Position numbers and translations under genes: made by a program. Below, one piece after another: positions 1,089-25,466 of a stretch of DNA of 32,372 nt (within the stretch, counting starts at the first letter, position 1; each line of letters begins with the position of its first letter). The stretch spans positions 1 through 32,372 of the forward strand of contig DAOVKU010000007.1 of NCBI GenBank assembly GCA_030631665.1, in the 5' to 3' direction. The stretch is from Candidatus Omnitrophota bacterium (lineage in GTDB: Bacteria > Omnitrophota > Gorgyraeia > DAOVKU01). A model generated the notes under the pieces. The model was given only the letters and a program-made list of their open reading frames with translations. It did no database searches and was not told the origin of the DNA.

Positions 1089-1874
1089 ATGCCAAGAACA
1101 AAGAACAAACGGTTTTCATTAGCAGAAGAAACCAAAAGGAAGTCTATATTCAAATTTATAATTCCGCTGTTAATATTTTTTCTTATACTGGCGTTGAGTT
1201 TTTTTGCTGCCAAAGCACTAATAAGTGGTTGTGGCAGTTCTAGTGTTTTTAAGCTGCGGCAATGTTATGTAGAAAATGATACTTTTAGCTTGAACGGACA
1301 GCAGGCTTTTGATTATTGTCAGCTATCCCCCGGAGGAAATCTTTTAGAGGTAGATCTTGAGACTTTAAGAGATGCAATTTTGCATGCACACCCGCAGCTC
1401 AAAGAGGCTACAGTAGCAAAAGATTATCCTGATACTATCAGGGTTTCTGTCGAAGAGAGAAAGGCCTTTGCTCAAATCGAAGCTAAAAAATTTTTTCTTG
1501 TAGATAAAGAAGGGTTTATATTAGAAAAAAGTTTTGAAAAACCCCAGTTGCAACTGCCGCTGATTATCGGCGTCAAATCCCGCCATATAAAAGAAGGTGT
1601 TTTTAGTCGATCTCCGGCATTAAAAAAGGCTATTGGGATAATAAAACTGCTTGAATTCATGAATTTTAAAGATAAATACGGAGTAAAAAAAATAGATGTA
1701 GCCAATCTTAATAATATTTCTTTTTATACAAAGGAAGATGTTGAGATTAAGCTTGGCAAAGATGATTTTAGAGAAAAAATAAAGAAGGTGGAATCTCGTT
1801 TGCCCAATTTGGATTTGAGACAGATAAGATATATTGATTTGCGTTTTAAAGATTTAATTGTCGGTCCCAAATGA
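1089..1874 (+). CDS. ftsQ: Cell division protein FtsQ/DivIB (POTRA domain)
   Basis: Single N-terminal TM, GGNLLEVDLETLRDAILHAHPQLKEATVAKDYPDTIRVSVEERKAFA POTRA pattern, C-terminal RQIRYIDLRFKDLIVGPK; lies between ddl and ftsA. Confidence 0.9.
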   Translation: MPRTKNKRFSLAEETKRKSIFKFIIPLLIFFLILALSFFAAKALISGCGSSSVFKLRQCYVENDTFSLNGQQAFDYCQLSPGGNLLEVDLETLRDAILHAHPQLKEATVAKDYPDTIRVSVEERKAFAQIEAKKFFLVDKEGFILEKSFEKPQLQLPLIIGVKSRHIKEGVFSRSPALKKAIGIIKLLEFMNFKDKYGVKKIDVANLNNISFYTKEDVEIKLGKDDFREKIKKVESRLPNLDLRQIRYIDLRFKDLIVGPK

Positions 1875-3100
1875 ATAAAAATAAAGATATGATAAGTTGT
1901 GCTTTGGATATAGGATCCAGCCGGATTAAAGCCGCCCTTGGAAGGTATTGCAAGCAGAAAAACTTATTTGAGATTCTGGCGGTGAAATCAATTTCGCCTA
2001 GCGGCGTTAGTGGTGGAATTGTATCTGATATGGCTACTTGCACACAGGCCGTTGCCGGGGTTTTAGAAGAAATAGAATTAAAGGCAAAAGCGAAATTTGA
2101 TTATCTTTTTTTAACAGTTCCAAGCTCGCAAATTAATCTTGAGTGTGCCAGGGGAGCTTGTTTGCTTAAAAGAGAGGGACACATTACCAGTAAGGAGATA
2201 GAACACGCCATACAAAGTTCGATAGAATTTTACCTGCCCCTGGACAGGAAACTGGTTCAAATAATAGTTGCAGAATTTATTATTGATGGACAAAAAGGCA
2301 TTTTAAATCCCATAGGAATGCTTGGAAAAAAATTGGAAGTACAAACCATTCTTCTGCATTCGCCAGTTCAGGTAGTATCAAATTTAGTTACAGCTGTTGA
2401 GGAGGCAGGCTACAGCATAGATGATCTGATTGTTTGCCCTCAAGCACAGGCTGAATTTTTCTTAACTGCCCGGGAAAAAGAGGATGGGGCAATATTACTT
2501 GATGTCGGAGATCAAACAATTAATTTTAGTTATTTTAAAGATAAATTTATATTCGAAATCAAGAGTTTTGATACAGGCATAGCTGAGATCAATAAAGGTA
2601 TTAGCTCCTTTTTTAAAATTCCTTATGAATATGCGCGAAAATTAAATGAGAGATATTTTAGCTTAACATCTAATATAGACAAATCAAATGAACCCATTTT
2701 ACTGGAGAAGAAAAATGGGGAATATGAAAGCATCTTAAGAAAAGATTTTTGCGCAAGAGGCACTGAGATCTCAGGAAAACTTTTTGCAATCATTGAAAAA
2801 TATTTAAAAAGGCATAGCACGGCTGATAGTGTTATGCTTTCGGGAGGAGCGGCCCTTATGGATGGTTTTCTTGAAAAGTTAGAAGATTATAATTTGAATT
2901 TAAAACCAGGTATGCCTCTCTCGGGCAAAATAAAAGTCCGCGACCCGTCTCTCAATAGCTCTTTATTTTCAAATAGTATATGTGCCTGTGTCTATGGACT
3001 TAAACTTTTAAGAGAAAAGCGCTTAAATCGCCTTAAAGATCGCCATTTTTTAAGCCGTTTCTTCTTGCGAATTAGAGATTTATTAGAAGAGTATTTCTAA
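1871..3100 (+). CDS. ftsA: Cell division protein FtsA
   Basis: ALDIGSSRIKAALGR, DVGDQTINFSYF, VMLSGGAALMDGFLEKLE; C-terminal amphipathic FLSRFFLRIRDLLEEYF membrane-targeting helix present. Confidence 0.94.
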   Translation: MNKNKDMISCALDIGSSRIKAALGRYCKQKNLFEILAVKSISPSGVSGGIVSDMATCTQAVAGVLEEIELKAKAKFDYLFLTVPSSQINLECARGACLLKREGHITSKEIEHAIQSSIEFYLPLDRKLVQIIVAEFIIDGQKGILNPIGMLGKKLEVQTILLHSPVQVVSNLVTAVEEAGYSIDDLIVCPQAQAEFFLTAREKEDGAILLDVGDQTINFSYFKDKFIFEIKSFDTGIAEINKGISSFFKIPYEYARKLNERYFSLTSNIDKSNEPILLEKKNGEYESILRKDFCARGTEISGKLFAIIEKYLKRHSTADSVMLSGGAALMDGFLEKLEDYNLNLKPGMPLSGKIKVRDPSLNSSLFSNSICACVYGLKLLREKRLNRLKDRHFLSRFFLRIRDLLEEYF

Positions 3101-3162
3101 ATGCGGAATTTAGGATTTAGGAGTTAGATCTTAATATTAAGTGTTAGGTGCTGAAATATAAA

Positions 3163-3834
3163 ATGAAAAAGAGAACATTACTGGCCTGGAGCAGCGGGAA
3201 AGATAGTGCATGGGCACTTCATGTCCTTCGTCAGCAACTTGATATAAATGTTGTCGGTCTTTTCTGTACGATCAATCAAAAGTTTAAGCGTGTTGCAATG
3301 CATGCAATACGGATTGAATTGATACAACAACAAGCAGAAAGTGTGGGTCTTCCTGTTCAGATAATTTCGATTCCGCACCAATGCAGTAACTCCGAATATA
3401 AAATCATAATGGATGAATTTGTTGGACAAGCAAAAAGACAAGGAATTGAATATTTTGCTTTTGGCGATCTATTCTTAGAGGATGTTCGTAAATATAGAGA
3501 ATCTAACTTAACGGATACTGGAATTACTCCTATATTTCCACTCTGGGAAAAACCTACGAATGAGTTATCTAAAGAAATGGTAGGCGGTGGACTTCGAGCA
3601 ATAATAACCTGTGTTGATACTAAACACTTGCCCTCGAAGTATGCAGGGAGAGAATATAACACTTCATTTCTAAAACAAATACCGGAGGACATTGATCCTT
3701 GTGGAGAATATGGAGAATTTCACAGTTTTGTTTTCGATGGCCCCATGTTCAAAAAGAAAATATCCATTTGCGTAGGTAAAACTGTATTCCGCAATGGTTT
3801 CGTATTCACGGATTTATTGTCAGATGGCGCCTAA
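3163..3834 (+). CDS. Adenine nucleotide alpha hydrolase / diphthine-ammonia-ligase-like (Dph6 family) ATP pyrophosphatase
   Basis: LLAWSSGKDSAWALHVL PP-loop, GLFCTIN, FGDLFLEDVRKYRE, CGEYGEFHSFVFDGPMF. The TAA stop lies inside the R'' box of the attC-like site. A GTG at 3148 is an alternative start. Confidence 0.88.
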   Translation: MKKRTLLAWSSGKDSAWALHVLRQQLDINVVGLFCTINQKFKRVAMHAIRIELIQQQAESVGLPVQIISIPHQCSNSEYKIIMDEFVGQAKRQGIEYFAFGDLFLEDVRKYRESNLTDTGITPIFPLWEKPTNELSKEMVGGGLRAIITCVDTKHLPSKYAGREYNTSFLKQIPEDIDPCGEYGEFHSFVFDGPMFKKKISICVGKTVFRNGFVFTDLLSDGA

Positions 3835-3889
3835 CAAGGCGCTACACCTGACCGCGAAGCGTCGGGGCAGGTGAGTTTGAATGTTAGAC
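3829..3889 (+). mobile_element. attC-like integron recombination site
   Basis: R'' box GCCTAAC (3829-3835) and R' box GTTAGAC (3883-3889), near reverse complements and matching RYYYAAC/GTTRRRY. Between them is a 45-60 nt imperfect hairpin with CACCTG (3845-3850) pairing to CAGGTG (3868-3873). It lies directly between two small genes. Confidence 0.8.
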
Positions 3890-3910
3890 AAGATAAAAAA
3901 GGAATAACAA

Positions 3911-4465
3911 ATGGCAAAACATGTATGTCCTGTCTGGATTGGTTATCTTCTTGCTAGCCCCGTTAGAAAATTGTTTCAAAATCCAGATAAAATACTTAGC
4001 CCATACGTTATAGAAAATATGACTGTCCTTGATGTTGGTTGCGCCATGGGATTTTTTAGTTTGCCTGCAGCCAAGATGGTTGGCCGGAATGGAAAAGTAA
4101 TCTGCCTCGATCTTCAAAAAGAAATGATCAAAACACTTGAAAAACGTGCGTTAAAAGCCGGATTAATAAATAGACTTGAAATTCGCCTGTGCAAAGAAAA
4201 CTCACTCGGCATAAATGATATGGCAGAGAAAATTGATTTAGCTTTTGCAGTTGCAGTTGTACATGAAGTCCCTGATGTCTCTGTTTTCTTCTCAGAAATA
4301 TACAAAACATTAAAATCGGGGCATAAGTTCTTAGTTGTTGAGCCCAAGGGGCATGTCTCAGTAGAAAGTTTTGAAAAAAGCATTTCCATTGCTAAAGAAA
4401 ATGGATTTGTAGTAATTGACAGGCCAAAAGCTCGGTTTAACAGGATTGTAGTGCTAAAAAAATAA
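3911..4465 (+). CDS. Class I SAM-dependent methyltransferase
   Basis: VLDVGCAMGFFSLPAAKMVGRNGKVICLDLQKEMIKTLEKRA SAM-binding motifs; VVHEVPD; FLVVEPKGHVS. SD aaagga upstream of the ATG. Confidence 0.9.
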   Translation: MAKHVCPVWIGYLLASPVRKLFQNPDKILSPYVIENMTVLDVGCAMGFFSLPAAKMVGRNGKVICLDLQKEMIKTLEKRALKAGLINRLEIRLCKENSLGINDMAEKIDLAFAVAVVHEVPDVSVFFSEIYKTLKSGHKFLVVEPKGHVSVESFEKSISIAKENGFVVIDRPKARFNRIVVLKK

Positions 4466-4467
4466 AC

Positions 4468-4506
4468 ATCTAACGATGCGCTGCGCCTGAGTTGCTATGC
4501 TCAAAA
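4468..4506 (+). mobile_element. Probable left half of a decayed attC-like site
   Basis: ATCTAACGATGCGCTGCGCCTGAG begins 3 nt after the methyltransferase stop and resembles an attC R''-L'' side. I could not find a convincing matching R' (GTTAGAT); the best candidate, GTTATGG at 4550, does not fit the consensus. Confidence 0.4.
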
Positions 4507-4843
4507 AAAGTAAGTGTATTTTCACATTGGATATACAAACTTCTAACTTGTTATGGATGATTTTTTTTGCAAGATGAACAAAGGAGAAATGTAGCAAGTG
4601 AAAAGGCTATCTAAAATATTTCTTATTACTTATGGGGCATATTCTTTGACCAATACAATTGTGCTGGATTGAGTTACTTAATCAACGGTTGCAAGACGAT
4701 GTGGCGCCCGCATGCGTGAGCCGCAACGCTATCCCGCCAAACTATATTCTATCAGTTACCAAAAAGCTAAGTAATTAAAAATGTAGATATAAATCTGACC
4801 TTTTTGTTTGCCCCCTGCTTGTCGATTATGCAGGTGTTTTGAT

Positions 4844-4871
4844 TGACACCTATATTCTTTTGTGATAATCT
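4844..4871 (+). promoter_or_regulatory. Sigma70-type promoter upstream of proC
   Basis: TTGACA (4844-4849), 16-nt spacer, TAATCT (4866-4871). Confidence 0.55.
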
Positions 4872-4910
4872 AAAAAACGCAATAGAAACAAATTTTGCAA
4901 GGTGATAAAG

Positions 4911-5723
4911 ATGAAAGAGAAATTTAGAAATATCGGCATAATGGGTACCGGCAATATGGGCCAGGCCATAATAAAGGGACTTAAGGCCGCTGATTTTAAG
5001 AAGAACATTTTAATCATCGACAAAGATAAGAGAAAATCTAAAAAGATATCTAAGAAGTTAAAAGTCAAAGAGGCCGCAGACTTAGAAAGCTTGATTAAGA
5101 TGGCCAATATTATTATTATTTGCATCAAGCCTCAGGACATAGATAGTTTAATCAGCAAGATGTCGCGTTTTAAATTAAAAAATAAACTTATTATTTCAAT
5201 TGCAGCCGGCGTAAGCACTGCCTATCTTCTTAAAAAATTGAAAGCCAGGGTAGCGATTATTCGTGTTATGCCTAATATCAATGCTTTTGCGCAGAGAAGT
5301 GTTAATGCTATTTGCAAGGGGAAGCATGCGGAGAAAAAAGACCTTATAGCCGCGCATACAATTTTCGGCGTGCTTGGTGAAAATTTTATTGTTTCTGAGA
5401 AAAAGATGGATATTGTTACTGCTATTTCAGGTAGCGGCCCTGCTTATGTGGCGCTATTTATAAAGGCCCTATCGCTGGCAGCTAAAAAAAATGGTTTAAG
5501 TTTCAGCGAAGCAGAGAAAATAATTGCTCAAACCTTAGAAGGCACTTTAAAAATGCTAAAAGAGCACAAGATAAAGCCCGAGGATTTTATCAAAAAAGTT
5601 AAATCAAAGGGTGGAACGACCGAAGCCGCTTTTGAAATTCTTAAAAGAAAAGGTTTTGAATCTATTATTTTAGAGGCAGTTTGCGCGGCAAAAGAACGCT
5701 CTTTGAAATTGGGAAAAAAGTAA
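4911..5723 (+). CDS. proC: Pyrroline-5-carboxylate reductase
   Basis: NIGIMGTGNMGQAIIKGL, RVMPNINAFAQ, ISGSGPAYVALFIKAL, GGTTEAAFEIL. The ATG at 4911 has SD aaggtg; the track start at 4902 is GTG. Confidence 0.94.
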   Translation: MKEKFRNIGIMGTGNMGQAIIKGLKAADFKKNILIIDKDKRKSKKISKKLKVKEAADLESLIKMANIIIICIKPQDIDSLISKMSRFKLKNKLIISIAAGVSTAYLLKKLKARVAIIRVMPNINAFAQRSVNAICKGKHAEKKDLIAAHTIFGVLGENFIVSEKKMDIVTAISGSGPAYVALFIKALSLAAKKNGLSFSEAEKIIAQTLEGTLKMLKEHKIKPEDFIKKVKSKGGTTEAAFEILKRKGFESIILEAVCAAKERSLKLGKK

Positions 5724-6940: not shown

Positions 6941-9766
6941 ATGGACAAAGTTAATTTTAAAAATACTTTAAATTTACCTAAAACCAAGTTTTCTATGAAG
7001 GCCAATTTACCGCAGGCAGAGCCCAAAATAGAAACTTTGTGGCAAAATAAAAAGGTTTACGAAAAACTGCAGGAGAAAAACGCTTCTCATAAAAAGTTTA
7101 TTTTGCACGACGGACCGCCTTACGCCAATGGAGATATACATAGAGGGCACGCGCTTAATAAAATTTTAAAAGACATTATCGTTCGCTATAAATCTATGAA
7201 TGGTTATGACACCCCTTTCGTGCCTGGTTGGGACTGCCATGGTTTGCCTGTGGAACTCCAGCTTCTTAAACAATTGAATCTTAAGAAATATCAGATTAAT
7301 AAAAGCGATTTTAGAAAACAAGCAAAAGAATTTGCTTTGAAATTTGTTGATATTCAAAGAAAACAATTTGAGAGATTGGGCATATTTGGCGAGTGGCAGC
7401 ACCCCTATCTTACTCTCGATAATGTTTACGAAGCCCGGGTTTTATATGCATTAGCCGGTTTAGTAAAAGAGGGTTTCATTTATAAGAGTTTAAAGCCCGT
7501 AAACTGGTGTTATCACTGTGAAACAGCCCTGGCCGAGGCCGAAGTTGAATATGAGGAGATTTCTTCACCGTCGATTTTTGTTAAATTTAGACTTAAAAAT
7601 CCTGCAGATTTAACCGACGATAACGAGTCTGAAGTTTATCTGGTTATTTGGACCACTACCCCCTGGACGCTTTTGGCAAATGTGGCTTGTGCCTTAAATC
7701 CCACTCTGCCTTACGTTTTGGTTGAGGTAGGAAAAGAAATGTGGGTCATGGCTAAGAGCCTGGTTGGAAAAGTATTGGAAGCGGCTGGCATTGATGAGTA
7801 TAAAATATTAAAAGAGATAAAAATAGGGGAAATGGAAGGATTAAAATATTATCATCCCTTTTTTCAAAGAGAAGGCGTGGTTGTCCTGGCAGATTATGTT
7901 TCAAAAGAAGAAGGTTCCGGCATTGTTCACATTGCTCCCGGTCATGGCCAGGAGGATTATATTATAGGCCTTAAGTATAAATTACCGGTTATTATGCCGG
8001 TAGACGAAAAAGGGAATTTTGATAAGAATCAGGGTGAATTTAGCGCTTTCAATGTAAGAGAGGCGAATCAGAGAATTATAGAAAAGTTAGACAAGTTGAG
8101 TCTATTAGTAGCTGCTTCACAGGTTAAGCATTCTTATCCGCACTGCTGGAGATGCAAACAACCCATTATCTTTAGAGCTACAAGTCAATACTTTATGCAG
8201 ATAGACCATAAAAATTTAAGAAAGAAACTACTCTCCTTGGCGGCAGAAGAAGTCAAGTGGATACCATCTCAAGGAAGAGAAAGAATTCAGTCTATGATAG
8301 AAAATCGCCCCGATTGGTGTCTTTCCAGGCAAAGACTCTGGGGGGTGCCCATTCCTGCTTTTTACTGTCGCAATTGCAAGGCCCATATTTTAGATGCAAA
8401 GATTATTAGCCATGTCGCTGGATTGGTTGAGAAACAGGGTAGCGATGTATGGTTTGAAAGCAGCGAAACGGAACTCTTGCCGGAGAATTTTAGATGTCCT
8501 GAATGCGGGGGTGATAAATTTAAGAAGGAAGAAGACATTCTTGATGTCTGGTTTGAATCTGGAGTAAGCTACCAGGCCGTTCTCAAGCAAAGGAATAATT
8601 TAGCCTATCCGGCAGACCTTTATCTCGAGGGCAGCGACCAGCATCGTGGCTGGTTTCAGTCTTCTTTGACAATTTCAGCGGCTTTAGAAAATAAAGCACC
8701 GTACAAGCAAGTTTTAACTCATGGGTTTGTGCTGGATGGCATGGGCAAAAAAATGTCAAAATCTCTTGGCAATGTTATTAGTCCTCATGATATCATAAAA
8801 AACAAAGGCGCTGATATTTTGAGGTTGTGGGTTGCCTCAAGTGATTATAACGAAGATATTAGAATTAGTGATGAAATTATAAACAGGCTTTCGGAAGCTT
8901 ATAGAAAAATAAGAAACACTTTTAGGTTTATTTTGGGCAATTTATACGATTTCAATAAAAAGAAGGATTTAATTGATCCAAGCCGCTTAGAGCTTATTGA
9001 TAGGTGGGCACTTTCAAAGTTATATCTTTTATTAAAAGAAGTGGATAGCTATTATGAAAATTACGATTTTTTAAGGGCTTATCAGGCTATCTATCATTTT
9101 TGCGTTGTGGAACTCTCATCTTTTTATCTTGACATTTTAAAAGATAGATTATATACTTTTGCTCCAAAAAGCATTGGGAGGCGGTCGGCGCAGACAGCCC
9201 TTCTTTATATAATAGACGTACTTACCAGAATAATCGCTCCTCTCATACCTTTTACGGCTGAGGAAGTATGGCAATATTTAAGAACTGATGAAGCCGAAAG
9301 CGTACATTTGCTTGATTGGCCGGAGAAAAGCAAATTTAAGATTTACAGCGATGTCGGACTTGAGAAGGATTTTGAAAAATTGCTGGCCTTAAGAAGAGAT
9401 GTAACCAAAAAGCTTGAGGGAAAAAGAGAAGAAAGGTTTATTGGTAATTCGCTCCAAGCGAAAGTGATTATTTATACAAAGATTGACTGCGAAAACAAGC
9501 GTCTTTTAGATAAATATTATAAGGAATTAGTTTCTATCTTTATTGTTTCTCAAGTGCAGGTAAAAGCAGTGGACTCCTTAAAAGAAGGAGAGCCGTGCCA
9601 ATATTTTGAAGATGCAAGTTTAAAAATTGAAAAGGCGCCTGGTTTCAAATGTCCCAGATGCTGGAATTACTCAGTGGATGCGGGCAGTTGCAAGGCTTAT
9701 CCTGGAATTTGCCAGAGGTGCCTCGATGCTTTAAAAGAAGGAGGAATGGAGAAAGCCAATGGATAA
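6941..9766 (+). CDS. ileS: Isoleucyl-tRNA synthetase
   Basis: PPYANGDIHRGHALNKILKD (HIGH region), LEGSDQHRGWFQSSL, GMGKKMSKSLGN (KMSKS), C-terminal zinc motif CPRCWNY...CQRC. Confidence 0.98.
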   Translation: MDKVNFKNTLNLPKTKFSMKANLPQAEPKIETLWQNKKVYEKLQEKNASHKKFILHDGPPYANGDIHRGHALNKILKDIIVRYKSMNGYDTPFVPGWDCHGLPVELQLLKQLNLKKYQINKSDFRKQAKEFALKFVDIQRKQFERLGIFGEWQHPYLTLDNVYEARVLYALAGLVKEGFIYKSLKPVNWCYHCETALAEAEVEYEEISSPSIFVKFRLKNPADLTDDNESEVYLVIWTTTPWTLLANVACALNPTLPYVLVEVGKEMWVMAKSLVGKVLEAAGIDEYKILKEIKIGEMEGLKYYHPFFQREGVVVLADYVSKEEGSGIVHIAPGHGQEDYIIGLKYKLPVIMPVDEKGNFDKNQGEFSAFNVREANQRIIEKLDKLSLLVAASQVKHSYPHCWRCKQPIIFRATSQYFMQIDHKNLRKKLLSLAAEEVKWIPSQGRERIQSMIENRPDWCLSRQRLWGVPIPAFYCRNCKAHILDAKIISHVAGLVEKQGSDVWFESSETELLPENFRCPECGGDKFKKEEDILDVWFESGVSYQAVLKQRNNLAYPADLYLEGSDQHRGWFQSSLTISAALENKAPYKQVLTHGFVLDGMGKKMSKSLGNVISPHDIIKNKGADILRLWVASSDYNEDIRISDEIINRLSEAYRKIRNTFRFILGNLYDFNKKKDLIDPSRLELIDRWALSKLYLLLKEVDSYYENYDFLRAYQAIYHFCVVELSSFYLDILKDRLYTFAPKSIGRRSAQTALLYIIDVLTRIIAPLIPFTAEEVWQYLRTDEAESVHLLDWPEKSKFKIYSDVGLEKDFEKLLALRRDVTKKLEGKREERFIGNSLQAKVIIYTKIDCENKRLLDKYYKELVSIFIVSQVQVKAVDSLKEGEPCQYFEDASLKIEKAPGFKCPRCWNYSVDAGSCKAYPGICQRCLDALKEGGMEKANG

Positions 9767-10154
9767 ACAAGAGCTTAAAAAATACAGAGAAAAATTATTA
9801 AAAATTAAAGAGATAATTCAGGGTGATATAAGACAACTTGAGAAAGATTCTTTTTCGAAAACACAAAAGGAAGCTTCCGGAGATCTTTCCAGCCATACCC
9901 TGCACATGGCTGATATGGCCAGTGATAGTTATGAAAGAGATTTTGCTTTTGATTTGGTTTCAAATGAGCAAGAACTCATGTATAAAATAAGCGAAGCCCT
10001 AAGAAGAATTGATGAAGATAAATTTGGAAAGTGTTTGGCTTGCGGTAAAAAAATTAGTAAAGCAAGATTAAATGTTGTGCCTTATGCAGGTTTATGTGTA
10101 CCCTGCAAGCAGAAACAAGAAAAAGAAGAAGGCGGAAAAGAGAATAATCAGTAA
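9759..10154 (+). CDS. TraR/DksA family zinc-finger protein
   Basis: C-terminal CLACGKKISKARLNVVPYAGLCVPCKQKQE C4 zinc finger; EALRRIDEDKFGKC. Confidence 0.9.
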   Translation: MDKQELKKYREKLLKIKEIIQGDIRQLEKDSFSKTQKEASGDLSSHTLHMADMASDSYERDFAFDLVSNEQELMYKISEALRRIDEDKFGKCLACGKKISKARLNVVPYAGLCVPCKQKQEKEEGGKENNQ

Positions 10155-10600
10155 TGTTTTTTCTTTTGTGCGTTGCAACCGTTTTCCTTTTAGATAGAAT
10201 AACTAAAATAATTGTAGTAAAAAAATTATTTCTTGATGAATCACTGCCTGTTTTTGGCAAAATTTTCTCTATCACGTATATAAAAAATACAGGAAGTGCT
10301 TTTGGTATTTTTCCCGGGGCCACAAAAGTTTTTATCTGTCTTTCCGGCCTAGCTATTATTTTAATAATTGTTTTTTTATTTTACTTGAAACAGAAAGATT
10401 ATTTCATCAAATTTGGCCTGGCACTGATTTTAGGTGGAGCGATTGGAAATTTAGTTGATCGTTTGGCTTTTGGTTACGTTATCGATTTTCTTGATTTTAA
10501 AATCTGGCCGGTTTTTAATCTGGCTGATTTTTTTATCAGCATCGGCTGTTTTTCACTCTTATTTAAAATATTTACCATTGGTCATAAAACAACAGAGTAA
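10154..10600 (+). CDS. lspA: Prolipoprotein signal peptidase (SPase II)
   Basis: LDRITKIIV, YIKNTGSAFGIF, LGGAIGNLVDRLAFGYVIDFLDF, FNLADFFISIG. Confidence 0.95.
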   Translation: MFFLLCVATVFLLDRITKIIVVKKLFLDESLPVFGKIFSITYIKNTGSAFGIFPGATKVFICLSGLAIILIIVFLFYLKQKDYFIKFGLALILGGAIGNLVDRLAFGYVIDFLDFKIWPVFNLADFFISIGCFSLLFKIFTIGHKTTE

Positions 10601-14650: not shown

Positions 14651-14742
14651 TCATCAGCTTTGCCCCCCATAAAGACAGATAACAGAAAACAGAGGACAGA
14701 GGACGGAGGACGGAAAAGAAAAAAATCTGTCTTCTGACTCCT

Positions 14743-15118: not shown

Positions 15119-16195
15119 ATGGAAAATAAAGTGTGGCAGTCAATAGTTAAAAGTTTTAATGCATTTATAGGTATGTTTTCAAATGATATGGGCATCGATT
15201 TAGGCACAGCCAATACCCTGGTTTATGTAAAAGGCCTGGGTATTGTTTTATGCGAGCCGTCTGTTGTTGCCATTCAAAAGAATACTCATCATGTTTTAGC
15301 TGTAGGGCAGGAGGCCAAGAGAATGCTCGGGCGAACTCCGGGAAGCATTATCGCTATTAAACCGATGAAAGATGGAGTTATTGCTGATTTTGAAATCAGC
15401 GAAAGTATGCTGCGGTATTTTATTCGCAAAATCCATAAAAGGAAGACTTTTGTCAGACCCAGAATAATAATTGCCATTCCTTCAGGCATAACAGAAGTTG
15501 AAAGAAGGGCTGTCAAGGATTCTGCAGAGCATGCTGGAGCGAGACAAGTTTTTCTGATTGAGCAGCCGTTGGCGGCGGCCGTGGGAGCGGGATTGCCCAT
15601 TCAGGAACCGGCGGGTAATATGATAGTAGATATTGGCGGTGGCACTACGGAAATTGCAGTAATTTCATTGGGAGGCATAGTCTGTGCAAGGTCATTAAGA
15701 ATTGGCGGCAATGAGCTCGATGATGGCATTACTCAACATCTTAAAAAAATTTATAATCTTATGATTGGTGAAAGAACTGCCGAAGATATCAAGATTAAAA
15801 TAGGGTCGGCTTATCCGTTAGAAGAAGAATTAAGTATGGAAGTTAAAGGAAGAGATTTAGTATCAGGCCTGCCGAAAACCCTTACCATTTCTTCGGAAGA
15901 AATCAGGGAGGCGCTTTCAGAGGCGGTGGCCCTTATACTGGAAGCAGTCAGGGCTACTTTAGAAAAAACTCCTCCCGAACTTTCGGCAGATTTAGTTGAC
16001 AGAGGAATTATTTTGACCGGCGGAGGAGCATTGCTTAGAAATTTCGATAAATTAGTTTGCGAAGAAACCGGTTTGCCGGTTCACTTAGCTGATGACCCCT
16101 TAACAGCAGTAGCTGAGGGCGCCGGGAAAGTTCTTGACGAAATTAAGTATCTTAAGAAAATGGCGGCCGTTTCAAAATTAGACATTCAAGAATAG
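15119..16195 (+). CDS. mreB: Rod shape-determining protein MreB
   Basis: [67 protein letters not shown] 15119 has SD aaaggag; the track start 15095 has none. Confidence 0.96.
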
Positions 16196-16196
16196 A

Positions 16197-16985
16197 GTGA
16201 AAGGACTAAGAGAGTCCATTAGTATTGGTTTAGTTGTATTATTTTTTTTGTTAGTTATTTTTTGCCTTCCGTATCAAGTAACTACCAGTCTAAAACTCAA
16301 AATTGTCCAATTTTTAGAATACCCCCTGAAAGCTTCTTTTTTTATCAGCAACCAACTCAAGAATATACTTTTTTATCCCACCATTTTAAAAGAAAACCTT
16401 TCATTAAGAAAAGAAGCTTCTGTTCTGAAGAATGAAAATGTGCAGTTAAGAGAAGTCTTAGAAGAGAATGAACGACTGAACTCGCTGTTATCTTTTAAGC
16501 GAAAATCAGCTTTTAGACTCATCGCTGCCAGAGTGATAGCCAAAGATGCTTCGAGCTGGAAAAAATCAATTACCATTGACAAAGGTTTAAATGACGGCGT
16601 TTATCTTGAAATGGCTGTTATTACACCTGCCGGCTTGGTGGGCTGGGTTAGGGGCGTTGGTTTAGCTAGCGCGCAAATAATGTTAATCACAGATATAAAT
16701 TCAAGAGTAGCAGCCCTTGTTCACAAAACGAGATTGGAAGGCATTGTAGGGGGGACGGGCGGAGAATGGTGCCGCCTAAAGTTTATCGAAGCCGAGGCAG
16801 AAATTGATAAAGGGCAAATGGTTATCACCTCCGGTTTAAGTTCCATTATTCCCAAGGGACTTATTATAGGAAACATCGAGGAGGTAATTTACAAAAAAGG
16901 TCAGGTTCAGAAAATAGTCTTTATTAAACCAGCCGTCAATTTTAATAGGTTAGAGGAAGTGTTGTGCATAGATTCAAGCCATTGA
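16197..16985 (+). CDS. mreC: Rod shape-determining protein MreC (GTG start)
   Basis: N-terminal TM, coiled coil LRKEASVLKNENVQLREVLEENERLNSLLSF, TPAGLVGWVRGVG; between mreB and mreD. Confidence 0.93.
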   Translation: MKGLRESISIGLVVLFFLLVIFCLPYQVTTSLKLKIVQFLEYPLKASFFISNQLKNILFYPTILKENLSLRKEASVLKNENVQLREVLEENERLNSLLSFKRKSAFRLIAARVIAKDASSWKKSITIDKGLNDGVYLEMAVITPAGLVGWVRGVGLASAQIMLITDINSRVAALVHKTRLEGIVGGTGGEWCRLKFIEAEAEIDKGQMVITSGLSSIIPKGLIIGNIEEVIYKKGQVQKIVFIKPAVNFNRLEEVLCIDSSH

Positions 16986-17455
16986 GGCTTAGCTTTATTA
17001 TTTTAATTCTCGCTTTTTTAGAAACAAGTCTTTTCGCAAATTTTACTTTTTATAATTTAAAGATAGAACTACTTTTGATGTTGATAGTTTTTTTAAGTCT
17101 GTTCTCTATTAAAAAACAGATTTATATATGTGCCTTTTTTTGCGGGATGCTTAAGGATATTTTTAGCATCCTCCCTTTTGGCATAAATATTTTAATATTT
17201 ATGCTGATAGCTTTTTTTATTCAAAGAATTCCCAAAAATTTTTTCAGGGAAGAAAAATTAACTTTTGCCGCGCTGGTTTTTGTAGGAACTTTTTTTTCAG
17301 GTCTCATTTCTTTATCTTTGACAGGACCTTATTCCTTAAATTTTTTTAAGAAGTTCATCAATGTAATTTTATCTACCACTTTTATTTCAACTCTTGTAAG
17401 TCCTTTGTTCTTTTCTTTTTTTAAATTGGTTTTAATTAAAAATGAGAGTAAATAA
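16964..17455 (+). CDS. mreD: Rod shape-determining protein MreD
   Basis: Small polytopic membrane protein (GMLKDIFSILPFGINILIF) between mreC and mrdA; overlaps both. Confidence 0.85.
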   Translation: MHRFKPLRLSFIILILAFLETSLFANFTFYNLKIELLLMLIVFLSLFSIKKQIYICAFFCGMLKDIFSILPFGINILIFMLIAFFIQRIPKNFFREEKLTFAALVFVGTFFSGLISLSLTGPYSLNFFKKFINVILSTTFISTLVSPLFFSFFKLVLIKNESK

Positions 17456-19181
17456 GTTAAAGATTATATTTGTTTGCTTCTTTTTCATTTTGATAGCTTC
17501 TTTTCTGCATAAACAAATTTTTTCTTATCCGATTTATAGAATTTTAAGTGAAAAAAATAGAATCCGCATTTGTTCCATCCCCGCCCCCAGAGGAATAATT
17601 ACTGACAGAAAAGGTGAAGTTCTTGCAGGAAATAGAATATCTTATGCAGTAGCGGTAATTCCGCAAGAAATGATGAACAGGCACTTTACTTTTAATCTCT
17701 TAGCCCAAGCCCTTAATATGACCCCGGAATTTATAGCCGAAAATTATAAAAGAAATTACATAACCCCATTTGCGCCCGTTGCAGTGGCGCAAGATATTAG
17801 CAAAGAAGAGGCCATAAGCCTGGAAGAAAGAAGTCTTTTTTTGCCGGGTGTCATTGTTACGACCACCCCTGTTCGTTACTATCCCCTGAGGGAGGCCGCT
17901 TCACATATCATTGGTTATTTAGGGGAGATTGACGCGGAAGAATTGCATAAGTTGAAGCCCTATGGATACAGAATTAAAGAATTAATAGGTAAGAATGGGA
18001 TAGAGAAAGTTTATAATGTCTATCTTAAGGGAGAAAAAGGGGGTATTCAGATTGAGGTAAATAATCATGGTCATGAGGTAGAGGTCCTTAGTTATAAATC
18101 TCCGGAAAGAGGAAATGATATACAGCTAAGCATCGATAGTCGGCTTCAGAAAAAAGTGTACCAGCTTATTAAAAATTATACTGCCGCTGTGACCATTATG
18201 GAGCCAAATACCGGAGAAATTTTAGCTATGTGTAGTTCTCCGGCTTTTGACCCAAATATCTTTATTAATCATGGTCATAACAAAGAAATTATTTCTAAGT
18301 TAGAAGATTCCCAACTCCCGTTTCTTAACAGAAACATTCAGGCTAGTTATCCCCCCGGCTCTCTTTTTAAAATCCTTATTGCTTTAGCCGCACTTCAAGA
18401 GGATAAAATTAATCGTTATACCAGCTTTGAATGCAAAGGAGCATTTAAGCTGGGTAACAGAACTTTTGCCTGCTGGGATGAGGATGGCCATGGTCGCCAA
18501 ACGGTGATAGACGCCATAAAGCATTCCTGTAATATCTTTTTTTATAATGCGGGCTTAAAGCTGGGAGTTAATTTGATTTATAAATATGCTAAGGAATTCG
18601 GGTTTTCCGAACGGACCGCAGTTGATTTGCCGCACGAAATAAAGGGATTTGCCCCCAGCAGGCAGTGGAAAAAACAGCAGTTTGGCGAAGCATGGTATAA
18701 AGGCGAAACAGTGATTTATTCTATAGGTCAGGGTTATCTTACTGCTACACCCCTGCAAATTCTGAGAATGATAAGCGTTGTAGCCAATGGTGGTAAAATT
18801 ATTAAACCATATTTAGCCAGGAAAATAGGAGAAGTTTATATAGCCAAGCCGAATTTCAGAGAATTGAAGATTGACAGGGAAAATTTAGAAATTACTAGAG
18901 AGGGGATGAAGGGGGTAACCAGAGATGGCGGGACAGGCTATAGGATTGCTATTAATGGTTTGGATATAGCCGGAAAGACAGGTACCGCCCAGGCATCTAA
19001 GGGTGAATCTCATGCCTGGTTTTCAGGATTTGCTCCGGCTGATAATCCCAAAGTAGCCATAATAGTTATTCTTGAACATGGAGGCAAGGGGGGCATTAGA
19101 GCTGTAGATGTTGGTAGAGGGATTTTTTCTTTTATTAAGGAAAATTATAATTTGGATGAAGACCTCCCCTTTGGGGGTTAA
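17442..19181 (+). CDS. mrdA: Penicillin-binding protein 2
   Basis: APRGIITDRKGEVLAGN, SLFK (SxxK), HSCN (SxN), AGKTGTAQ (KTG), SIGQGYLTATPLQ. Confidence 0.96.
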   Translation: MRVNKLKIIFVCFFFILIASFLHKQIFSYPIYRILSEKNRIRICSIPAPRGIITDRKGEVLAGNRISYAVAVIPQEMMNRHFTFNLLAQALNMTPEFIAENYKRNYITPFAPVAVAQDISKEEAISLEERSLFLPGVIVTTTPVRYYPLREAASHIIGYLGEIDAEELHKLKPYGYRIKELIGKNGIEKVYNVYLKGEKGGIQIEVNNHGHEVEVLSYKSPERGNDIQLSIDSRLQKKVYQLIKNYTAAVTIMEPNTGEILAMCSSPAFDPNIFINHGHNKEIISKLEDSQLPFLNRNIQASYPPGSLFKILIALAALQEDKINRYTSFECKGAFKLGNRTFACWDEDGHGRQTVIDAIKHSCNIFFYNAGLKLGVNLIYKYAKEFGFSERTAVDLPHEIKGFAPSRQWKKQQFGEAWYKGETVIYSIGQGYLTATPLQILRMISVVANGGKIIKPYLARKIGEVYIAKPNFRELKIDRENLEITREGMKGVTRDGGTGYRIAINGLDIAGKTGTAQASKGESHAWFSGFAPADNPKVAIIVILEHGGKGGIRAVDVGRGIFSFIKENYNLDEDLPFGG

Positions 19182-19230
19182 ATACAGGCAGGAAATCGAG
19201 CATATAATTTACATTTCAGCCAAAGGCTGA

Positions 19231-19262
19231 TCCGCCTCTGGTGGACACTTACGCTCTGTAAG
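19231..19262. repeat. Composite palindromes tccgcc-tct-ggtgga and cttac..gtaag upstream of rodA
   Basis: TCCGCC (19231-19236) / GGTGGA (19240-19245) and CTTAC (19248-19252) / GTAAG (19258-19262). A further CAGCC-AAA-GGCTG hairpin lies at 19217-19229. Confidence 0.6.
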
Positions 19263-19264
19263 CT

Positions 19265-20350
19265 ATGCTCTCACTAAAAATGTTTAAAAATTTAAATTGG
19301 AAATTGATTATTATTGTAGTTATTCTTCTTATTATAGGCGAATTTGTTATATACAGCGCCAGTGGTATGCGCCAGGATGCCATGAGCCTTGTTGCCAGAC
19401 AGGGTCTGTGGATGTTCATTGGAATTTGTGTAGTTATTTTTATAATAAGCGTGGGTTGTAATCGTCTTATAGAAGCTGCTTATCCGTTATATATAATAGT
19501 TTTCCTCCTGCTGATACTTGTAATAGGTTTTGGTGCCCAACGTTTCGGCGCTCAAAGATGGTTGTCTTTTGGTTTTTTAAATATTCAGCCTTCCGAATTA
19601 GCAAAATTTGTTCTCATACTTACACTGGCCAGATTTTTTGGTTTTGAGAAACAAAGAGTCAATCAATTTCATTTTATTTTAATATCTATAGCTATTGTTT
19701 CTTTATTCTTTGTGCTTGTTTTAAAACAACCTGATCTTGGTACGGCTTTAAGTTTCATACCTATTTTTTTTGCTATGATTTATGTCGCTGGTTTGAAGTT
19801 GAAGTATTTAATAGGCCTTTTGGCAGCCGGTATTTTCTCAAGCCCCTTTTTGTGGAATACACTTAAAGGTTATCAAAAAAAGAGATTGCTTGTATTTTTA
19901 AATCCCAATCTGGATCCACTGGGAGCCGGTTATACCATTATTCAATCCAAGATAGCTATTGGCAGTGGTGGTTTATTTGGTAAGGGATACTTGATGGGAA
20001 CCCAGTCACAGTTGAAATTTTTACCAGAAGCCCACACTGATTTTATATTTGCAGTGATTGCCGAGGAATGGGGTTTTATAGGAGTTTTTTTGGTCATGTT
20101 TTTATATTTTTTATTGATTATGGAGGGATTTAATATTGCTTATAGGTGCAAGAACAATTGCTCTAAATTGCTGGCTACTGGTGTCGCAACCATGTTTGCC
20201 TCTCATTTTTTAGTGAATGTTTCCATGACTACGGGCATTTTGCCTGTGGTTGGGCTTCCTTTGCCTTTCATAAGTTACGGAGGTTCCAATTTAATTGTTA
20301 GTTTGGCTGGTATTGGCGTTCTCTTGAGCATAGATAGAGAAAGATTTTAG
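19265..20350 (+). CDS. rodA: Rod shape-determining protein RodA (SEDS family)
   Basis: GFGAQRFGAQRWLSFGFLNIQPSELAKF, KQPDLGTALSFIPIFFAM, PEAHTDFIFAVIAEEWGF, LPFISYGGSNLIVSLAGIG. True start could be the internal ATG at 19280. Confidence 0.95.
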   Translation: MLSLKMFKNLNWKLIIIVVILLIIGEFVIYSASGMRQDAMSLVARQGLWMFIGICVVIFIISVGCNRLIEAAYPLYIIVFLLLILVIGFGAQRFGAQRWLSFGFLNIQPSELAKFVLILTLARFFGFEKQRVNQFHFILISIAIVSLFFVLVLKQPDLGTALSFIPIFFAMIYVAGLKLKYLIGLLAAGIFSSPFLWNTLKGYQKKRLLVFLNPNLDPLGAGYTIIQSKIAIGSGGLFGKGYLMGTQSQLKFLPEAHTDFIFAVIAEEWGFIGVFLVMFLYFLLIMEGFNIAYRCKNNCSKLLATGVATMFASHFLVNVSMTTGILPVVGLPLPFISYGGSNLIVSLAGIGVLLSIDRERF

Positions 20351-20401
20351 ATATTCGGCACTGATTTCTACGAGCATCGAGCTATGAGCATTGAGGCAAT
20401 C

Positions 20402-20430
20402 TTGACTATTACCATGATTTAATGTATACT
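20402..20430 (+). promoter_or_regulatory. Sigma70-type promoter for the GAF/GGDEF gene
   Basis: TTGACT (20402-20407), 17 nt, TATACT (20425-20430). Confidence 0.65.
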
Positions 20431-20574
20431 TATAACCACTTCTGTTGTTTTAAGATAAAGCAATTTTAATGACCCCTAATGAAACGAAAAAGGGAATTTG
20501 TGGATATCTTTAGTCTTACAATTTATGTTGTTGGCATGCCATAGATTGTCTGTTCATTTAAGGAGGTAATTGGA

Positions 20575-21996
20575 ATGAAAAGGTTTTTTAAGAGTCTGGA
20601 GCTTGTCCCGCGTGGTTTAAAGTATAAGATGCTTATCATATTTTGCTTAACATCCATTGTTCCTATTTTAGCCCTTCTTTATATTATTTCTACTTACATT
20701 TTTTCTATTACAGAAACATTTGGCAGCTTAATGCTCACCATCGGCTTAAGCCTGTTTATCGCTATCCTGGGCTTTGTTTTATCTACCAATATAGTTAATT
20801 CCATTATAAAAATGGCAGAGGGTGTCAGGAGCCTGGCCAATGGGCAGGTTGCGCCTTCACTGGAGACAGAAAGAGAAGATGAAATTGGCGATTTGGGTAA
20901 AAGCCTTAATTTATTAAATTCCCGCCTAAATCAAAATATGGGCGAACTGAAATCTTATGAGCAGAAAATCAGAGAAATAAATATGGAAATCAATAAAAAA
21001 GTCCTGGCTCTGTCAACGCTCTTTCAGATAGGCAATATGATATCTTCCACGGTAGATTTAAATGTAATTTTGCAGTTTATTATTGAAAAAGCTTATGAAG
21101 TGGTGAAGAGCGAGAAGGCCTTTTTGATGTTGATGGAAGAGGAATCAAAAGAGCTTGTAGTTAAAGCTATGCATAACATAAAAACCGAAGATGTTGATAG
21201 TTTAAAAGTGAAGGCCGGAGAAGGTGCTTTCGGTAAAGTAGTTATGGCAAATAAACCATTTATTATTGATGCTTCTCATAAATCACCTGGGGATTTTAGG
21301 AATTTTTTATCAAAACACAATCTTAAAAATATAATCATGGTTCCCATAATAATGAGATTAAAACCCGTTGGGTTAATTGCCTGCGGCAATAATTTTAATA
21401 GTTTTTCCTACGAGAAGGACGACATGGAGTTGATGGGTATTTTTGCGAAGCAGACTTCCATAGCTTTTGAAAATGAGAAATTACTTCAAAAAACAGAGGA
21501 GCTTTCAATCAAGGATGATTTAACGGGTCTTTACAATATAAATTATTTTAGAACAAGACTTGAAGAGGAAAATCAAAGGGCCATGGCATACCAGCGTCCC
21601 TGTTCATTGATTTTAATGGAGGTAGATGATTTTAAGAATTATTATGCCAAGAATGGAGAAATAGCCAGCGACGCCGCATTGAAGAAAATTGCTCAGATTT
21701 TAGAAAACAGCGTTGAGCAGATTGATAGGGTTGCACGCTTTTCAGATGAAGAGTTTGCTATTGTTTGTCCGGAGAAGAATAAGATGGAAGCTTTGGCGCT
21801 TGCGGAAAGCATTCGAAAAGAAATAGAAAAATTCAAATTTCCTCATGCCGAAAGCCAACCCCTCGAAAAAATTACTATTAGTGCCGGTATAAGCGCTAAT
21901 CCGCTCGATGGCATTAGCTCTGATGAGCTGATTAATAAAGCTAGCAGGTGCCTTGGGCAGGCAAAAACAGAAGGCAAGAATAAAGTTGCGGTTTGA
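20575..21996 (+). CDS. Membrane HAMP-GAF-GGDEF protein with degenerate GGDEF motif (SDEEF)
   Basis: Two N-terminal TMs, HAMP-like segment (IVNSIIKMAEGVRSLANGQV), GAF, then KDDLTGLYNINYFRTRLEEE...DRVARFSDEEFAIVCPEKN. SD aaggagg. Confidence 0.85.
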   Translation: MKRFFKSLELVPRGLKYKMLIIFCLTSIVPILALLYIISTYIFSITETFGSLMLTIGLSLFIAILGFVLSTNIVNSIIKMAEGVRSLANGQVAPSLETEREDEIGDLGKSLNLLNSRLNQNMGELKSYEQKIREINMEINKKVLALSTLFQIGNMISSTVDLNVILQFIIEKAYEVVKSEKAFLMLMEEESKELVVKAMHNIKTEDVDSLKVKAGEGAFGKVVMANKPFIIDASHKSPGDFRNFLSKHNLKNIIMVPIIMRLKPVGLIACGNNFNSFSYEKDDMELMGIFAKQTSIAFENEKLLQKTEELSIKDDLTGLYNINYFRTRLEEENQRAMAYQRPCSLILMEVDDFKNYYAKNGEIASDAALKKIAQILENSVEQIDRVARFSDEEFAIVCPEKNKMEALALAESIRKEIEKFKFPHAESQPLEKITISAGISANPLDGISSDELINKASRCLGQAKTEGKNKVAV

Positions 21997-22092
21997 GCGG
22001 AGTCCGGACTTGCGGAGCGTAAATGTTTATAATCCTGAACTTATGTTTATTAACAGTCGAGTAAGTTTTGTCGTTAGCGAAGGAGATAAATA

Positions 22093-23157
22093 ATGTTAAA
22101 AATCAAAGATTTGCTAAAAATAGCAGTAGAAAGAAACGCCTCAGATCTGCATATCACCGCTTATAACCCACCTACCATAAGAGTGGACGAGAAAATAATT
22201 CCTCTGGATGAAAAAGCCCTTAGCCCGAAAGAAAGCAAGGAGCTTTGCTATAGTCTGCTTTCCGAATCTCAAATTACCGAGTTTGAAAAAAATTGGGAAT
22301 TGGATATGTCGTTCAGTTGGGGTAATGTGAGCCGTTTCCGGCTAAATGTATATTTACAAAGAGGCAGCGTGCAGGCTGCCATCAGGACTTTACCATATAA
22401 AATGATGAGTTTTGAAGAATGCGGTTTACCGGTTGACGTGGCTATTAAATTCTGCAGAATTCCCAGAGGCCTGGTGCTGGTTACGGGAGCGACCGGCAGC
22501 GGCAAATCCACCACTACAGCTGCCATGATTAATTATATTAATAATGAAAGAGGTTGTCATATTATAACTGTTGAAGACCCAATTGAATATGTGCATGAAA
22601 ATAAAAAGGCCATTGTTGACCAGCGCGAAATAAATACAGATACCCATTCTTTTGCCCAGGCCCTGAAACATGTTTTGCGCCAGGATCCGGATGTAATTAT
22701 GATTGGTGAGATGAGAGACCTTGAGACCATAGAAGCCGCTTTAAATATTGCCGAGACAGGACATCTGGTTTTTGCCACATTACACACTTCAGACAGCACC
22801 CAGACTATGAATAGAGTTATAGATGTTTTCCCTGCCTATAAGCAGCAACAGGTGCGTACTCAACTTTCTTTTGTTCTCATAGGGGCATTCTGCCAACAGT
22901 TAATTCCAAAGATCGGCGGCAAAGGCAGAGTGCTGGCAACCGAAGTTATGGTGGCCAACGCTGCTATAAGAAGCCTTATAAGAGAACAAAAACAGCATCA
23001 GATTTATTCAGTTATTCAGACCGGTCAACGCGAAGGCATGAAAACTTTGAATCAGTCTCTGTATGAGCTTTGCCAGAAAAAACTTATCACCCACGAGGAT
23101 GCTTTAGGCAGAACACTTGATCCCCATGAACTAAGCCGACTCATTGACAAAAAGTGA
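22093..23157 (+). CDS. pilT: Type IV pilus retraction ATPase PilT
   Basis: NASDLHIT, GLVLVTGATGSGKSTTTAAMI, RQDPDVIMIGEMRDLETIEAALNIAETGHLVFATLHT, AIRSLIREQKQHQIYSVIQTGQREGMKTLNQSL. Confidence 0.95.
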   Translation: MLKIKDLLKIAVERNASDLHITAYNPPTIRVDEKIIPLDEKALSPKESKELCYSLLSESQITEFEKNWELDMSFSWGNVSRFRLNVYLQRGSVQAAIRTLPYKMMSFEECGLPVDVAIKFCRIPRGLVLVTGATGSGKSTTTAAMINYINNERGCHIITVEDPIEYVHENKKAIVDQREINTDTHSFAQALKHVLRQDPDVIMIGEMRDLETIEAALNIAETGHLVFATLHTSDSTQTMNRVIDVFPAYKQQQVRTQLSFVLIGAFCQQLIPKIGGKGRVLATEVMVANAAIRSLIREQKQHQIYSVIQTGQREGMKTLNQSLYELCQKKLITHEDALGRTLDPHELSRLIDKK

Positions 23158-23163
23158 GGCATT

Positions 23164-23730
23164 ATGGAATTAGGCAAAAGAGTTGTCTCCAAACAACTTG
23201 GCCAGCTATTAATAGAAAGAGGCCTTATAGATAAAAAGCAGTTACAAATTGCCCTTGATAAACAGAGAAAAGAGGGCCAGTTAATAGGCCAGATACTGGT
23301 GAAACTGGGTTTTGTCTCCGAAGAAGATATAGTAGAAGCGCTTACTACTCAGTATGGATATCCTTATTTACCTCTCGAAAATTATGAAATAGATAAATCT
23401 GTTTTAAATGTTATATCCGCCCAGGTGATAAGACACTACTATTTAATTCCTATAGATAAAATTGCAAATATTCTCACCATAGTTATGGCGGACCCTTTAA
23501 ACACCTTCGCCATTAAGGACATTGAACAGATAACTAAAATGAAGGTCGAAGTTTTTGTGAGCACCGCTACTGATATCAAAAAGTCCATAGAAAAATATTA
23601 TGGCAAGCCGTCAGGGGCATCAAAAAAAGAAGTGGAAGAAAACAAACTTTCTAAAGCGGACTTTGCAACCACAGCCAGGGAAAACTTAAAAAAAGAGACG
23701 GAAGAAAAGAAAAAAGATACCGGTGTTTGA
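23164..23730 (+). CDS. Standalone MshEN (GspE/PilB N-terminal) domain protein
   Basis: QLGQLLIERGLIDKKQLQIALDKQRKEGQLIGQILVKLGFVSEEDIVEALTTQYGYPYLPL matches the tandem MshEN pattern. The ORF ends at 188 aa without any ATPase domain. Confidence 0.88.
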   Translation: MELGKRVVSKQLGQLLIERGLIDKKQLQIALDKQRKEGQLIGQILVKLGFVSEEDIVEALTTQYGYPYLPLENYEIDKSVLNVISAQVIRHYYLIPIDKIANILTIVMADPLNTFAIKDIEQITKMKVEVFVSTATDIKKSIEKYYGKPSGASKKEVEENKLSKADFATTARENLKKETEEKKKDTGV

Positions 23731-23735
23731 TTATT

Positions 23736-25466
23736 ATGGTAAAAACTTTTAGAGACAGGTTGATTGATATTCTTATAAAAGGCAAACTCATTACTGAAAA
23801 ACAACTGCAGGAGGCCTTAAATCTTCAAAAAATAAAGGGCGGACGCCTGTCTGAAATTTTAATTGGCCTGGATTTTGTCACCGAAAAAGACCTCAAGGTT
23901 GCTTTAAGTAAAAGTTTAGAAATACCACCCATTAATCTAACCAGGATTAAAATCGACAAAGGTATCCTTGATTTTATTCCACAGCGCATAGCCAAATTTT
24001 ATCAGCTTATCCCAATTTCTAAAATTAGAAATACGATTACGGTTGCTATGGCTGACCCTTTAAATGTTTTTGCCCTTGATGATATAAAGACATTGACTGG
24101 TTTTAAAGTCAGGCCGGCTATTGCCACTCAGAAGGAAATAACATCTGCCATAAATCAGTACTACGGCGAGGAGACTAAAGTGGCCCTTGAGGGCATTATG
24201 GAGAATATAAAAGAGTCAGAATTAGAGATGGTAACCGAGGAGAGCCAAGAAGGATGGATTGATACCTCTACCTTGATGCAGATGGTTGAGGAGACGCCGG
24301 TAGTTAAAATAACCAATTTGATATTGACAAATGGGGTAAAAAAGAATGCCAGCGATATAATGATAGAGCCGTTAGAAGAGAAAGTTCGTGTAAGATTTAG
24401 AATTGACGGTATTTTACAAGAGCAGGAATCGCCTCCAAAATCCCTTCATAATGCTATTATTTCAAGAATCAAAGTTATTTCCGATTTAGACATAGCCGAG
24501 CGCCGTCTGCCGCAAGACGGCCGGTTTAAGGCAAAAATTTTAAATCGCGAGGTTGATTTTAGAGTTTCAGTATTACCTTCGAATATAGGAGAAAAGGTGG
24601 TATTGAGGGTTCTGGATAAAAGTGTTGTAACTCTTGATATTGAAAAACTCGGTTTTAATGAAACTTCTTTAAAAGTTATAAAAGAGACAGCCTTAAGACC
24701 TCATGGCATGGTTTTAGTTTGCGGCCCTACAGGTTGCGGAAAGACCACCACTCTTTATTCTATTTTACGTTTGATTCATACCCCGGATAAAAATATAGTC
24801 ACGGTTGAGGATCCGGTAGAGTTCCAACTTGACGGCGTAAATCAGGTAACAGCCAATCCGGAAATTAAGCTTACTTTTGCTAATGCCCTGCGTTCCATTC
24901 TGCGCCAGGACCCGGATATAATTATGATTGGAGAAATGCGTGATTTTGAAACCGTAGATATCGGCATCAAGTCCGCTCTAACCGGACATCTTGTTTTAAG
25001 CACTCTTCACACCACCGATGCCCCGGGTAGTATTGTGCGCATGATTAATATGGGCGTTGAGCCCTTTTTGATTACTTCCTCGGTTTTGCTGATAGCCTCC
25101 CAGAGACTGGTAAGAATTTTATGCGAGAATTGTAAGGAGAAATACGAAGCCAGCGTTTCTGTAAAGGAAGAACTTAAATTACCAAGAAATGAAAAAATAT
25201 TTTTTTATCGTGCAAAGGGATGCAGTAACTGTAATCAAACAGGTTATAAAGGAAGAACCGGTATAATAGAGACGATGCTACTTACACCTAAACTCGAAGA
25301 TTTGATTATAGATAAAGCCCCCGAAGCCCAGATTAAAAAGCAGGCCAGAATGGACGGGATGACGACTTTAAGAGAAAACGGTCTGAACAAAGCAAGAGAA
25401 AGCTTAACCTCGCTGGAAGAGGTTTTACGTGTAACAGCTTCTGATCAACCTTTAACGAAAACATAA
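23736..25466 (+). CDS. pilB: Type IV pilus assembly ATPase PilB-like, paralog 1
   Basis: Walker A GPTGCGKTTT, RQDPDIIMIGEMRDFET, zinc CENCKEKY...GCSNCNQTGYKGR. Track start 23727 is TTG; ATG at 23736. Confidence 0.93.
   Translation: MVKTFRDRLIDILIKGKLITEKQLQEALNLQKIKGGRLSEILIGLDFVTEKDLKVALSKSLEIPPINLTRIKIDKGILDFIPQRIAKFYQLIPISKIRNTITVAMADPLNVFALDDIKTLTGFKVRPAIATQKEITSAINQYYGEETKVALEGIMENIKESELEMVTEESQEGWIDTSTLMQMVEETPVVKITNLILTNGVKKNASDIMIEPLEEKVRVRFRIDGILQEQESPPKSLHNAIISRIKVISDLDIAERRLPQDGRFKAKILNREVDFRVSVLPSNIGEKVVLRVLDKSVVTLDIEKLGFNETSLKVIKETALRPHGMVLVCGPTGCGKTTTLYSILRLIHTPDKNIVTVEDPVEFQLDGVNQVTANPEIKLTFANALRSILRQDPDIIMIGEMRDFETVDIGIKSALTGHLVLSTLHTTDAPGSIVRMINMGVEPFLITSSVLLIASQRLVRILCENCKEKYEASVSVKEELKLPRNEKIFFYRAKGCSNCNQTGYKGRTGIIETMLLTPKLEDLIIDKAPEAQIKKQARMDGMTTLRENGLNKARESLTSLEEVLRVTASDQPLTKT

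Follow-up and report, generated by a model that had tools for sequence, protein, structure and literature searches.

Two integron-type gene cassettes, probably stranded, between ftsA and proC of a draft Omnitrophota genome

Results

The intergenic region between ftsA and proC in the Candidatus Omnitrophota genome analysed here very probably holds a stranded two-cassette island, either a SALIN or a CALIN with two attCs, the second of them decayed. The window, that is, the whole stretch of DNA that was analysed (32,372 nt), belongs to a draft MAG that is 93% complete and 6.1% contaminated. The preliminary description had read the region as a SALIN/CALIN-type remnant or as cassettes captured at a secondary site, and this reading is supported by a covariance match to an attC, by the lack of intI and by relatives of the first cassette gene (ORF1) in other phyla. 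Sites were scored with two covariance models: R1, built from 16 attCs of integron-bearing genomes of the same class and four class 1 attCs, with the window left out, and R2, trained on five class 1 attCs alone. The features of the locus are as follows.

1871–3100, plus strand: ftsA, left flank (TIGR01174, 161.9 bits; PF14450 and PF02491)
3107–3150, plus strand: degenerate heptad tract, intergenic and 7-nt periodic, read from the sequence; it holds both GTTRRRY boxes
3143–3149, plus strand: GTTAGGT, likeliest 5′ boundary of cassette 1, with the crossover between G and TT (6/7 to its own R″)
3163–3834, plus strand: cassette 1 gene (ORF1), Dph6/DUF71-type PP-loop ATP pyrophosphatase (PF01902, E 7e-33)
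3829–3889, plus strand: attC1 (R1, 50.8 bits, E 2e-10; R2, 31.7 bits; fold), with R″ 3829–3835, L″ 3845–3850, extrahelical base 3851, L′ 3868–3873 and R′ 3883–3889
3911–4465, plus strand: cassette 2 gene (ORF2), small class I SAM-dependent methyltransferase (PF13847, E 4e-17)
4468–4556, plus strand: attC2, decayed (R1, 9.8 bits where expected; left half agreeing with class attCs at 16/20), with left half 4468–4490 (R″ ATCTAAC), possible remnant R′ GTTATGG 4550–4556 and the inner stem lost
4557–4901, plus strand: non-coding gap (repeat search; yggS profile search)
4902–5723, plus strand: proC, right flank (TIGR00112, 241.5 bits)

The gene order is ddl-ftsQ-ftsA to the left of the cassettes and proC-yggT-PNP-ileS to their right, all on one strand, and the GC content of the cassettes (0.37–0.38) equals that of the flanks. 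Between 3101 and 4901 no attC or cassette remnant was found beyond attC1 and attC2. A promoter scan of the cassette region gave no more predictions than shuffled sequence, and Rfam returned no match in the window at gathering scores. We also observed that the leader of proC is copied imperfectly as a 13-bp direct repeat (4565–4577 and 4893–4905, 328 bp apart), the pair bracketing the non-coding DNA 3′ of attC2.

An intact attC between the two genes

The site at 3829–3889, initially described as attC-like with R″ GCCTAAC and R′ GTTAGAC, was present as described and is confirmed, at the level of sequence and predicted fold, as a bona fide attC. With R1 it scored 50.8 bits (E 2e-10 for the window and 9.5e-9 for the whole genome), and the runner-up match in the 32-kb window reached 11.8 bits. 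The class 1-only model R2 also recognized it, at 31.7 bits (E 1e-5). Single-strand DNA folding of the bottom strand gave z = -2.8, with a bulged extrahelical T and unpaired spacers. The right half of attC1 is identical at 21/21 positions to the attCs L158:10523 and L160:11268, both of which lie in IntI-linked arrays, and the closest match within its own genome is a CALIN site (L214:7393) with 39/43 identities, the left halves differing at 2/22 positions. The spacing of the genes around the site also agreed with the initial account: the TAA stop codon of ORF1 (3832–3834) falls within R″, and ORF2 starts at 3911, 21 nt past R′, where a distance of about 20 nt had been given.

A decayed second site and a weak left boundary

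A second attC left half had been proposed to begin 3 nt after the stop of ORF2. The left half (ATCTAACGATGCGCTGCGCCTGA) is indeed there and starts at 4468, so that the spacing from the stop at 4465 is 2 nt and not 3. The R1 score of attC2, 9.8 bits with a window E value of about 4, is too weak as lone proof. Its left half matches class attCs at 16/20 positions, and an equally good match occurs at 5e-5 of random window positions. The attC count near the cassettes is thus one intact and one decayed site.

The left boundary is the weakest part of the cassette anatomy. Both boxes noted earlier before the first gene, GTTAGAT (3123–3129) and GTTAGGT (3143–3149), are present; they are weak evidence when taken alone because they lie within the heptad tract, which makes such boxes by itself. 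GTTAGGT is the better boundary because it matches the R″ of cassette 1 (GCCTAAC) at 6/7 positions. In cassette 2, GTTAGAC at 3883 pairs with the R″ ATCTAAC at 4468, likewise at 6/7. R″ and the cassette's own 5′ TTRRRY box agree at 6 or 7 of 7 positions in 46/49 class cassettes (mean 6.7), and 31% of random R″/box pairs also reach 6/7. Exact period-7 intergenic tracts were seen elsewhere in the genome and the class, at 14676–14724 of the window, at 1905–1953 of L214 and at 5465–5596 of L224; at the other lags from 4 to 12 there is almost nothing comparable.

The cassette genes

ORF1 carries the C-terminal motif CGEYGEFHS, which in an alignment to 3rjz has a His where Dph6 has its catalytic Glu. 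This state resembles the DUF71-B12 subgroup of DUF71/COG2102 (PMC3541065), with which ORF1 shares the PP loop as well as the replacement of the catalytic Glu by His in the C-terminal motif. In contrast, the subgroup's motif is ENGE[FY]H where ORF1 has EYGEFH, and ORF1 is found without the B12 gene neighbourhood. The nearest relatives of ORF1 (60–68%) belong to Aminicenantes, Desulfobulbaceae, Pseudomonadota and Nitrospirota, whereas its homologues in the class reach 43% at most. In the tree ORF1 is nested, separate from all class homologues, in a clade with 100/100 support that comprises Pseudomonadota, Nitrospirota, Acidobacteriota and others. IntI was detected over the cut-off in 12 of 24 tested genomes holding ORF1 relatives. 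At two loci (L035 and L046) attC sites share the locus with ORF1 homologues, not closely flanking them, and at a third (L033) the homologue has cassette-like ends as judged by eye. These observations weakly suggest that ORF1 homologues may serve as cassette genes generally.

ORF2 is distant from the named ArsM and UbiE families, and no close homologue was found in the plasmids or viral contigs searched. Matches to an attC-like pattern are present in viral contigs. Judged from the sites and gene positions described above, ORF1 and ORF2 are confirmed as what appear to be real integron gene cassettes.

The ftsA–proC junction in class relatives

The preliminary description had proposed comparing this junction in close relatives. 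The relatives compared are of class level, as none closer came up, and the two genes are not a long-standing part of the locus in them. In most of them the gene directly before proC is yggS, identified from the sequence of the ORF in that slot; in one, ftsA abuts proC. No yggS match was found anywhere in the window's genome, of which the unassembled part may hold one, and a profile search detected no yggS relic in 3101–4901. Two outcomes had been named beforehand as telling against the cassette reading, the lack of an attC covariance match at 3829–3889 and an old, co-evolving presence of the two genes at the locus. Neither occurred, since attC1 was matched by the model and the class relatives do not have the two genes as a long-standing part of the locus.

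Another family of the class has attCs upstream of proC in two genomes. One (G011:C11, 21626–25031; L224) carries an array of four attCs in which an FRG cassette abuts proC, the array ending about 150 bp before proC; in the other (G045:C48, 24203–24263; L225) the attC lies 3.3 kb upstream of proC. Among the matches listed for the remaining attC-bearing genomes in which proC was located, none lay adjacent to proC. The two cases suggest a cassette hotspot upstream of proC in the class. They also bear on a possible, though not favoured, history in which an older cassette array (a CALIN or a complete integron) stood upstream of proC and shrank by deletion, instead of a direct insertion of two cassettes at a secondary GTT site. 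The loss of yggS here and the decay of attC2 would fit such shrinkage, as would the attCs of the other family; however, that family is the only other one with such sites among the attC-bearing genomes examined (matches listed), the slot holds an intact yggS in most relatives, and 3101–4901 contains no attC or cassette remnant besides the two. This is a sub-question of the main reading, as the cassettes would be genuine and stranded either way. A bolder extension, which we consider doubtful, is that cassettes land recurrently at ftsA–proC in this class, with GTT targets supplied by the heptad intergenic repeats, and that in this lineage they displaced the conserved yggS and owe their expression to read-through of the division operon.

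Integrase and other attC loci in the genome

The preliminary description had reported no integrase in the window, which was borne out, and no intI was found across the assembly either, a draft MAG whose unassembled part may hold one. Only XerC/D were found: the top TIGR02249 match in the genome, a XerC/D-type protein of 296 aa, falls short of the cut-off. The genome was also searched with R1 for more attC sites, as had been proposed. Contig C119 (locus L214) has six in a row (19392–24000), and contig C66 (locus L215) has a lone one at 16627.

Both loci lie in islands bracketed by a tRNA gene and a short repeat. The C119 island (18685–24054) begins with tRNA-Pro(cgg) (18685–18762), and a 19-bp copy of the tRNA 3′ end lies at 24036, just past the last attC. 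The cassettes of this six-attC CALIN include TIR and FRG domain proteins, and the island is without an integrase of its own. The C66 island (15410–22895, 7.4 kb) has tRNA-Ser(gct) at about 15410–15501 and a 27-bp copy near 22869, with a tyrosine integrase just before the copy; it also holds a DNA methylase and a DndB-like protein.

The draft state of the MAG and its 6.1% contamination raise the question of an assembly or binning chimera, with foreign cassette-bearing DNA joined to the bin. We regard this as very unlikely, as the flanks ftsQ-ftsA and proC-yggT-pnp-ileS follow the class gene order and share a contig with the cassettes, the cassettes equal the flanks in GC, and the C119 and C66 contigs of the bin carry class-type attCs as well. 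That attC1 is an inverted repeat arisen by chance, or a terminator, between ordinary native or horizontally acquired genes is barely credible: an interrupted stem of 6 bp is not in itself rare and piecemeal gene gain is common in operons, but the site stands at 50.8 bits where no other match in the 32 kb exceeds 11.8 bits, is near-identical to IntI-linked attCs, overlaps a stop codon with its R″ and was not called by the terminator scan.

How the cassettes may have entered and what they resemble

For the stranded two-cassette island we infer that two promoterless cassettes, each consisting of TTRRRY, gene and attC, entered between ftsA and proC in the same orientation as the operon, and that entry would have been through IntI recombination of bottom-strand attC hairpins. 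Since the genome now has only XerC/D, the IntI would have acted in trans or has since been lost. The point of entry may have been a secondary, attG-like GTT site or, given the attCs upstream of proC in the family of G011 and G045, part of an older array at the locus. The cassettes would now be immobile: the assembly lacks an integrase, attC2 has decayed and the left end is without an attC, a state in which normal excision should no longer be possible. They would behave as ordinary co-directional genes, and their co-orientation suggests that they may be read through from the upstream operon.

The element itself is of a known kind in a new setting. As in the CALINs and SALINs of IntegronFinder (PMC9024848), attC and cassette genes occur here with no integron-integrase within reach. 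A CALIN is defined by two or more attC within 4 kb and no intI; the present island, with one intact and one decayed attC, is below that default threshold of two, although single-attC CALINs can be true positives according to IntegronFinder 2.0 (PMC9024848). It also differs from CALINs (PMC9024848) in sitting in a division/proC gene cluster. No intI stands beside the sites at ftsA–proC, as it would in a complete integron. In PMC12444791 and PMC12901181, Loot et al. 2024 are credited with E. coli experiments in which cassettes were inserted at genomic attG sites. The present case resembles the insertions so cited in that its cassettes lie away from any integron, at a site that has a GTT and is neither an attC nor an attI; it differs in that the genomic outcome alone is seen here and the left junction is not decisive.

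Integrons across the class

IntI was detected above the curated cut-off in 21/292 sampled class genomes (7%), and attC matches at E 1e-4 in 57/292 (20%). A chromosomal cassette, which the earlier account had expected to be notable in this lineage, is therefore not exceptional. Because more genomes have attC than IntI, attC without integrase is common in the class; arrays in draft genomes break at contig ends (PMC9024848), which explains part of these attCs. A literature search for integrons in Omnitrophota returned nothing. Strict motif-and-fold scans of IntI contigs from other phyla found few attC sites because, within an array, the R′ is part of the cassette that follows, and class arrays and the covariance model were used in their place.

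One class genome (G106, locus L173) carries a complete integron, with intI at 8926–10242 on the minus strand and, in front of it, an array of at least 13 nearly identical attCs; other IntI contigs of the class have diverse attCs. The island studied here shares with L173 the attC architecture, the cassette spacing and the sense, but L173 has its own IntI and a long array of mutually near-identical attCs, and attC1 is closer to the attCs of L158, L160 and L214. The L173 IntI (8926–10242) is 438 aa as annotated from the first ATG, and about 110 residues precede its SAM-like core domain, an extension without Pfam match.

The locus offers a clear example of cassettes that became stranded within a core gene cluster, less expected in that they lie where relatives keep yggS. 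The survey uncovered a small-genome uncultured class with its own integrons, lone attCs and CALINs in tRNA islands. These class integrons and stranded cassettes make both cassette flow outside Proteobacteria and the fate of cassettes after integrase loss directly testable. Also less expected was that a class with its own integrons and with cassettes in tRNA islands has no detectable ftsZ: a match to TIGR00065 is absent from the window's genome and from 59/59 class relatives, one-contig genomes included. The idea that the cassettes had replaced ftsZ was rejected, as ftsZ was not found in the 59 relatives either. The window's genome, with no ftsZ match, still has ftsA and ftsQ.
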